This document shows positions 20,840-22,305 of a stretch of 64,000 bases of DNA, piece after piece. Position 1 is the stretch's first letter, and every line of letters begins with the position of its first letter. The stretch is from assembly GCF_034344865.1 (NCBI RefSeq), contig NZ_CP133774.1:620001-684000 (forward strand), in the 5' to 3' direction. The stretch is from Pseudomonas sp. 10S4. Lineage in GTDB: Bacteria; Pseudomonadota; Gammaproteobacteria; Pseudomonadales; Pseudomonadaceae. The notes under the pieces are model-generated. The model was not told the DNA's origin and searched no databases. It saw nothing but the letters and a program-made list of their open reading frames with translations. Both the position numbers and the translations under genes were made by a program.

Positions 20840-20863
20840 TATACCAAAAAACAATATTGTACA
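20840..20863 (+). promoter_or_regulatory. Class II LitR-type operator box (imperfect) before the renalase-like gene
   Basis: TATACC, 12 bases, TGTACA: five of six and six of six matches to T(G/A)TACA-N12-TGTA(C/T)A, the consensus recalled for P. putida class II LitR (PplR). A further lone TGTACA lies at 20885-20890. It sits in the 196-base divergent region between the TIGR01777 and renalase-like genes. Confidence 0.6.
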
Positions 20864-20910
20864 GGTTTAAACCACGGCGTAGTCTGTACAGAAAGGTAAA
20901 CGAGGCCCCT

Positions 20911-21897
20911 ATGACTGTACCTATCGCAATCATCGGCACCGGCATCGCCGGACTGTCAGCCGCCCAGGCCCTAACGGAGGCCGGGCATGTCGTTCAACTT
21001 TTCGATAAAAGCCGTGGCAGCGGCGGACGCATGTCGAGCAAGCGCAGTGACGCGGGGGCTCTGGACATGGGCGCGCAATATTTCACTGCCCGCGACCGCC
21101 GCTTCGTCACCGAGGTCCAGCGTTGGCAAGCCAATGGCTGGGTCGCCGAATGGACGCCACTGCTCTATACGTTTCAGGGCGGCCAGCTCAACCTGTCGCC
21201 GGACGAACAGACGCGCTGGGTCGGCACGCCGCGAATGAGCGCTATCACCCGCGCGCTGCTCGGGGACCTGGAGGTGCACTTCGCCTGCCGGATCACCGAA
21301 GTCTATCGCGGTGAAGAGCACTGGCATCTACAGGACGCGGAAGGCTTCACCCATGGACCATTCAGCCATGTGGTGATTGCAACGCCGGCGCCTCAGGCGA
21401 CCGCGCTGCTGGCCGCTGCGCCGAAACTCGCGGGGGCCGCTGCCGGGGTAAAAATGGACCCGACCTGGGCCATCGCCCTGGCCTTCGACAAACCGCTGGA
21501 TACGCCCATGGAAGGCTGCTTCGTGCAGGACAGCCCCCTCGACTGGCTCGCGCGCAACCGCAGTAAACCCGGGCGCGACAACACCATGGATACTTGGGTA
21601 TTGCACGCCACCAGCGCCTGGAGCCGGCAACACATCGACCTGCCGAAGGAAGCGGTGATCGAGCAACTGCATGGAGCTTTCGCCGAACTGCTGCACAGCG
21701 CGATGCCCGCACCGACCTTCAGCCTCGCCCATCGCTGGCTCTACGCCCGTCCCGCCAACAGTCATGAATGGGGCGTGTTGGCGGACGCCGATCTGGGCCT
21801 GTACGTATGTGGCGACTGGTGCTTGTCCGGACGCGTCGAAGGCGCCTGGCTCAGCGGCCAGGAAGCTGCCCGCCGTTTGCACGAGCACTTGCAGTGA
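20911..21897 (+). CDS. Renalase-like NAD(P)/FAD-dependent oxidoreductase
   Basis: A 328-residue flavoprotein: dinucleotide-binding loop [21 protein letters not shown] at the N-terminus, GGRMSSKR and [14 protein letters not shown] motifs, and a C-terminal FAD-contact segment [20 protein letters not shown]. This is the renalase-like amine oxidase architecture. The bacterial substrate is unknown. ATG 20911 begins MTVPIAIIG; the frame extends upstream into the operator region but there is no ribosome-binding site there. Its stop overlaps the GTG of the Trp-rich protein, and its promoter carries a LitR-type box, so it probably belongs to the light/oxidative response. Confidence 0.88.
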
Positions 21898-22109
21898 ACC
21901 GCATCAATCCAAGCAAATTGCGGCTGTCGAAATGGACAGCAGCCCAGCCGCAAAACCGCGAAAAACATTTTCTGGTGACCGAGTTGTTCCGGGATGAGGA
22001 AGGTACGGTGCTGGAAGTCGAGTTGCAGGCAGTGTTGACTCAGCGTAGTGAGCGGTTGGATTGGCAAACCCTGAAAGACAGCAACACCTGGCAATTGGGC
22101 TGGAAGTAG
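21894..22109 (+). CDS. TIGR02450-family Trp-rich small protein
   Basis: A 71-residue protein read from GTG 21894 ([20 protein letters not shown]), overlapping the stop of the flavoprotein by four bases (GTGA). It matches the TIGR02450 pattern: [19 protein letters not shown] and the C-terminal [16 protein letters not shown] with four tryptophans. The function is unknown; the translational coupling suggests it works with the flavoprotein. A REP pair follows and probably ends the transcript. Confidence 0.85.
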
Positions 22110-22115
22110 ATCCCC

Positions 22116-22204
22116 TGTGGGAGCGGGCTTGCTCGCGAATGCGGTGGGTCAGCCGCACATGTGTTGACTGACTCATCGCATTCGCGAGCAAGCCCGCTCC
22201 CACA
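22116..22204. repeat. REP inverted pair, GGAGCGGGCTTGCTCGCGAA family
   Basis: TGTGGGAGCGGGCTTGCTCG at 22116 mirrored by CGAGCAAGCCCGCTCCCACA ending at 22204. It splits the light cluster into two transcription units. Confidence 0.9.
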
Positions 22205-22230
22205 TGGGAATCGCGAGCACTTCAAAAACC

Positions 22231-22305
22231 TATACAAATAATTTGACTTGTACAGCTTCGAATCTATGATGAAGATTATATTGTACAACGCCAATGCGCT
22301 GTACA
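22231..22305 (+). promoter_or_regulatory. Promoter with two perfect LitR-type operator boxes
   Basis: Box 1 is TATACA (22231-22236), 12 bases, TGTACA (22249-22254). Box 2 is TGTACA (22282-22287), 12 bases, TGTACA (22300-22305). Both match T(G/A)TACA-N12-TGTA(C/T)A exactly. A sigma70-like promoter TTGACT (22243-22248), 16 bases, TATGAT (22265-22270) overlaps box 1, and box 2 lies just downstream of the predicted start site, which fits a repressor. It drives the DUF523/DUF1722-litR-phr operon, so LitR would control itself. Confidence 0.8.

Follow-up and report, generated by a model that had tools for sequence, protein, structure and literature searches.

Genes and features of the locus

The window, a 64,000-nucleotide stretch of the Pseudomonas sp. 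10S4 genome, carries on its plus strand genes in the order renalase-like, RudS, LitR1, photolyase, SnoaL-like, SDR, FAD oxidoreductase, DUF1365 and CMAS-like, next to a minus-strand pair that includes hemH. The features on which the analysis turns are listed with their window positions. Published accounts are cited throughout from excerpts of the articles.

18773..19816, minus strand: hemH, ferrochelatase (TIGR00109)
19812..20714, minus strand: TIGR01777-family oxidoreductase, divergent from box 3
20840..20863, plus strand: box 3, TATACC-N12-TGTACA, before the renalase-like gene; one mismatch (TATACC for TATACA)
20857..20885, plus strand: candidate promoter of the renalase-like gene, TTGTAC-N17-TAGTCT; weak, conserved, not reported by the consensus scan
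20911..21897, plus strand: renalase-like FAD-dependent oxidoreductase (PF01593, PF13450)
22231..22254, plus strand: box 1, TATACA-N12-TGTACA; no mismatches, conserved
22243..22270, plus strand: putative rudS-litR-phr operon promoter, TTGACT-N16-TATGAT; hexamers and spacing as in P. mendocina P6650
22282..22305, plus strand: box 2, TGTACA-N12-TGTACA; no mismatches, conserved, E 0.09 alone with the operator model
22328..23287, plus strand: RudS, by domain matches to PF04463 (2-thiouracil desulfurase) and PF08349 (DUF1722)
23288..24229, plus strand: LitR1, class II LitR, with a MerR helix-turn-helix (HTH) and B12-binding_2 only
24234..25705, plus strand: DNA photolyase (phr); frame broken near 25553-25565 in the assembly
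26120..30216, plus strand: rest of the operon by domains, namely SDR, FAD oxidoreductase, DUF1365 and CMAS-like (ufaM-like); gene kinds as in PME6630-ufaM

The RudS protein is a TudS-type desulfidase fused to DUF1722 and has three conserved cysteines, read as Cys15, Cys47 and Cys112 (compare Cys17, 49 and 114 of RudS_KT). Its presence in the operon connects the response with 4-thiouridine in tRNA, on which near-UV light acts (PMC11417400). Relatives match the photolyase in one frame over 24234-25565 and in another over 25553-25705; the listed phr frame consequently continues into the SnoaL-like gene, by a sequencing error or a true break. Two further observations were made by eye. An open frame at 16710-17207 resembles uracil phosphoribosyltransferase at its start and apparently drops out of frame halfway through, and an inverted pair of the GTGGGAGCGGGCTTGCTCGCGAA-type repeat lies at about 22115-22209, between the renalase-like gene and the RudS promoter.

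The N-terminus of LitR1 is a MerR-type HTH (PF13411, E 2.5e-17), followed by PF02607 only, with no second B12-binding domain and no match to a B12-binding Rossmann domain. Its match to Thermus CarH spans residues 23-178 and ends at 178. LitR1 thus has one of the two B12-binding domains that define class I LitR/CarH, and it scored 79.8 bits with the NCBIfam CarH model, for which the cut-off is 400. Of the CarH motifs DxHxxG and EEH, the former is absent from LitR1 and from a second LitR of this genome, LitR2, and LitR1 has MER at the position of the latter in the alignment. Published work describes class II LitR in the same terms (PMC9758184), and on domain content we assigned LitR1 to that class; its gene neighbourhood agrees with that of pmlR1/pplR1.

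Boxes 1 and 2 at the rudS-litR-phr promoter

Matching was done with TRTACA-N12-TGTAYA, and the form that a sequence-only reading of this DNA had given, T(G/A)TACA-N12-TGTA(C/T)A, proved to be the published one (PMC9758184). All three boxes lie where that reading had placed them, boxes 1 and 2 as exact matches and box 3 with one mismatch to the published class II LitR consensus. The genome-wide scan it had proposed gave two exact matches in the 7.27-Mb genome, both at boxes 1 and 2 (one for a reversed-pattern control). With at most one mismatch there were 17 distinct places, three of them within the 1.5 kb that holds the boxes. At up to two mismatches the window had six matches, a number that one of 100 shuffles attained (shuffle mean 1.40), and the whole genome had 319 against 261 for the control, so a lone two-mismatch match carries little weight.

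A scan of 21900-22340 gave a single sigma-70-like match, with TTGACT at 22243-22248 and TATGAT at 22265-22270 (0.3 in shuffles). Box 1 covers the -35 hexamer, the last six bases of its spacer being TTGACT. The two boxes had been said to flank and overlap this promoter, which holds for box 1; box 2 overlaps neither hexamer and lies between the -10 and the ATG. With a consensus site over the -35 and another before the ATG, boxes 1 and 2 have the layout expected of a class II LitR operator. In P. mendocina, promoter P6650 has the sequence TTGACT-N16-TATGAT, PmlR2 protects a region in which Site 1 covers the -35 and Site 2 falls between the start point and the ATG, and transcription begins 48 bp ahead of the ATG (PMC9758184). 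By analogy, transcription in the window would start at about 22280.

Box 3 and the renalase-like gene

From the genome-wide rate, about 0.0005 matches with at most one mismatch would be expected by chance in the 196-bp gap around box 3. The mismatch of box 3 is itself kept in most of the sampled loci described below (TATACC in 63 of 94). A scan of both strands of 20690-20930 gave no consensus promoter. The right half of box 3 with its preceding T reads TTGTAC and stands 17 bases ahead of a conserved TAGTCT; this pair is a plausible but weak candidate for the renalase-like promoter. Directly after TAGTCT there is an extra TGTACA half-site (20885-20890), which only a single group of relatives retains.

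The renalase-like gene is the most likely target of box 3. In P. putida KT2440 the cluster PP_0738 to PP_0742 was raised together in co-culture under equal light (PMC11014904), and gene order suggests that PP_0742 is the renalase-like gene. We found no description of a box 3-type site at the renalase-like gene in the excerpted P. mendocina account (PMC9758184).

The boxes are conserved in the genus

Of 149 Pseudomonas genomes searched for LitR1, 144 have it, judging by E-value (weakest 2.3e-75); G015, G079, G089, G093 and G123 lack it, with matches of 1e-34 or weaker. Conservation of the boxes was followed in 97 LitR1-carrying loci picked by hand from near to distant, a non-random sample in which near relatives weigh heavily. 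The order hemH-TIGR01777-renalase-RudS-LitR-Phr was present in 94 of the 97; two of the others had only RudS-LitR-Phr in the stretch and in one no RudS was found.

The best box in the gap between the TIGR01777 and renalase-like genes (n=96, window counted) had no mismatch in 26 cases, one in 68 and two in one, with no box in the remaining gap; box 3 is accordingly present at up to one mismatch in 94 of 96. Upstream of RudS (n=97, window counted) 92 regions had a perfect box, four had one with a single mismatch and one had none, which gives 96 of 97 at the same threshold. With spacers of 6-11 or 13-20 in place of 12, at most 5 of 96 gaps and 11 of 97 RudS regions scored. Two boxes were present in 82 RudS upstream regions, one in 14 and none in one, and the box-to-box distance was 49-51 in 81 of the 82 two-box promoters and 46 in the other. 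TTGACT-N16 was followed by TATGAT (54) or TATGCT (17) in 71 of 97. Boxes at both the rudS and the renalase-like promoters are conserved, and specifically with the 12-base spacer.

Operator shape and reach

TGTACA is its own reverse complement, and therefore the hexamers alone leave the orientation of the half-sites open. The flanks point to one: approximately AAC(C/T) tends to precede left halves and GGTTT or AGT to follow right halves (reduced sets of 31, 30 and 18 copies; 61-copy consensus). This signal is clear to the left of box 1 and on both sides of box 3 and weaker at box 2, and to the right of box 1 conservation is poor. With the half-sites so oriented, the alignment suggests an operator in the form of an inverted repeat, about AACYTRTACA-N12-TGTAYAGGTTT.

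A profile of 61 operators returned the three boxes in this genome at E 1.1e-4, 4.8e-4 and 0.09, where the values of boxes 1 and 3 lean on copies in the model that are identical or close to them; the next place had E 5.5. No further operator below E 5 was found in this genome among the 150 of 748 first-look candidates that were scored. All 59 genus genomes searched with the profile had an operator at E 0.05 or better. The strongest operators of this search (L140 and L141, about 1501-1533) lie near a DUF3833 lipoprotein-like gene, a call made with Pfam for L140 only and through similar sequence for L141. LitR-type operators were also seen before genes for a PAS chemotaxis receptor, a GAF-EAL protein and a dCache-GGDEF protein in G038, G020 and G035 (L144, L146 and L153, about 1501-1534), where light may reach motility or cyclic-di-GMP.

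LitR1, LitR2 and the short LOV protein

In the genome of the window LitR1 and LitR2 are each present once, and a third, weak MerR match has an internal stop. LitR2, with 35-36% identity to LitR1 and only a MerR domain in Pfam, is encoded away from the operon. In the same stretch, near folE, lies the gene for a short LOV protein without effector domain (158 aa, PAS_9, DCRFLQ motif; G000 2965675-2966148), the only one in this genome at E 1e-15 or better. In the PDB its best hits, including 3sw1, are 142-175 aa chains annotated as sensory box or regulatory protein.

Three of the genomes without LitR1, G015, G079 and G089, keep LitR2 (63%), the short LOV (60-77%) and operators. RudS directly adjoins phr in G015 and G089 and is itself absent from G079. 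In the corresponding stretches (L147 and L178 of G015, L177 of G089) LitR1 is missing between RudS and phr, with the operator and the neighbours kept; in G089 the RudS-side operator was the only one found at E 1 or better. In G093 we found no LitR1, LitR2, short-frame LOV or operator at E 1 or better. Operator-like sites do occur in G123, at E 0.004 (beside a renalase-like gene) and 0.016, and our searches found no LitR1, LitR2 or short LOV there; this genome argues against a strict coupling of operators to LitR or LOV.

LitR1 was the sole LitR found in ten genomes, in all of which the LitR2 query retrieves that same gene. Nine of them gave no short LOV at E 1e-15 or better: six had LOV-like matches only in long frames (460-1261 codons) and three had none. 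The tenth, G142, has a short LOV in a 167-codon frame. Operators were present in all nine LitR1-only genomes examined (seven in fetched loci, G026 and G027 by profile; G094 was left out). The boxes thus persist with LitR2 and LOV, or with LitR1 alone.

A putative blue-light-relieved operator set

From their sequence, the three boxes are putative binding sites of the known blue-light-relieved repressor kind and an example of an already described system. We consider it very probable that they are class II LitR operators at which blue light relieves repression through the short LOV and LitR2, with LitR1 feeding back. In the dark, LitR on boxes 1 and 2 would cover the -35 and the leader of rudS-litR-phr and block RNA polymerase, and LitR on box 3 would do likewise at the renalase-like promoter. 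Blue light would most likely act via the short LOV encoded elsewhere, which would bind LitR2 (perhaps also LitR1) and free the DNA; this step follows what was demonstrated in vitro with the P. mendocina proteins PmlR2 and PmSB-LOV, of which blue-light-activated PmSB-LOV inhibits DNA binding by PmlR2 (PMC9758184). LitR1, as a product of the operon, would in turn act back on these boxes.

That the boxes arose by chance, as hits to a short palindromic motif, is highly improbable: the genome-wide count at two mismatches does lie near that of the control, but the conserved position with a strict 12-base spacer and a layout identical to that of the footprinted P6650 promoter argue against coincidence. 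Which LitR acts at the boxes is a closer matter. The sequence-only reading had expected the operon LitR to regulate itself, and the published light induction of pmlR1 (10.1-, 6.0- and 5.7-fold; PMC9758184) fits this. The acting repressor need not be LitR1, however, since the published footprint was made with its paralogue PmlR2, a LitR2-type protein, and a similar LitR adjoins the short LOV elsewhere in this genome. Plain autoregulation, with LitR1 as the main or only repressor at the three boxes and LitR2 and LOV mattering little, would agree with the place of LitR1 within the operon in 97 of 97 loci, all of which were fetched for carrying it, and with the LitR1-only genomes that keep operators; we regard it as rather unlikely in view of that footprint and of the three genomes that lost LitR1 and keep operators, LitR2 and short LOV.

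The proposal that box 3 links hemH to the regulon fared less well. Box 3 would then be a shared divergent operator that makes TIGR01777-hemH light-inducible too, and ferrochelatase would clear the photosensitiser protoporphyrin under illumination. Box 3 does lie in the divergent gap, the two genes stay beside it in 94 of 97 loci, its left half overlaps, by reading of the minus strand, TGGTATAAC, an extended -10-like stretch, and a Shewanella mutant lacking its two hemH genes fails to grow when illuminated (PMC6664582). On the other side, PP_0743 and PP_0744 are not named in the excerpted KT2440 co-culture transcript report (PMC11014904), neither strand of the gap has a consensus promoter, conserved blocks between box 3 and the TIGR01777 start (about 20752-20761 and 20801-20812) are perhaps a promoter of its own, and the gene order may be kept for other reasons. 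We found no publication in the open-access library searched that links PplR1 with hemH, and Sumi 2020 may list hemH or the renalase-like gene. Shared control from box 3 is in our judgement doubtful, and control of hemH is possible but unsupported.

The preferred reading, LitR operators relieved through short LOV and LitR2, may not cover the whole genus, because nine of the ten LitR1-only genomes had no short LOV that we could find. We tentatively entertain the possibility that class II LitR proteins are interchangeable at a single conserved set of operators, some species having only LitR2 with its short LOV and others only LitR1 and no short LOV, and that LitR1-only species use a route other than the short LOV (own sensing or another photoreceptor) for light or photodamage signals. 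If so, a second input would reach the same operon in these species, and they raise a testable question, namely the source of the LitR1 signal.

Comparison with known systems

LitR1 shares the MerR HTH and the helical domain after it with class I LitR/CarH (Thermus CarH, PDB 5c8d, 3whp), and differs in the B12-binding Rossmann match and the two CarH motifs described above. The P. putida KT2440 PplR1-3 regulon (Sumi 2020, as cited in PMC9758184, PMC11417400 and PMC11014904) has the same consensus and an equivalent gene set, PP_0741 RudS, PP_0740 PplR1 and PP_0739 PhrB; three PplR and two short LOVs are reported there, in contrast to the one LitR1, one LitR2 and one short LOV of the window genome.

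P. mendocina shares with the window the promoter TTGACT-N16-TATGAT with its two boxes, placed over the -35 and ahead of the ATG, an operon with photolyase, LitR, SDR, FAD oxidoreductase and ufaM, and a LitR2-type gene with a short LOV elsewhere in the genome. It differs in that box 1 of P6650 begins TGTACA, whereas that of the window begins TATACA, and in that PmlR2 binds the folM promoter there (PMC9758184), whereas no box with up to two mismatches was found by folM in this genome (L115 searched). The core finding is in this respect already known: the main promoter corresponds to the footprinted P6650. Added here are the conserved box 3 before the renalase-like gene, the longer palindrome, the orientation of its half-sites and the pattern of interchangeable regulators. 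The palindrome and the regulator pattern were not found described in the literature excerpts consulted, and Sumi 2020 may hold part of these additions. Comparison of about a hundred relatives shows that nearly all of those sampled retain, at this locus, an operator layout for which the footprint comes from one species.
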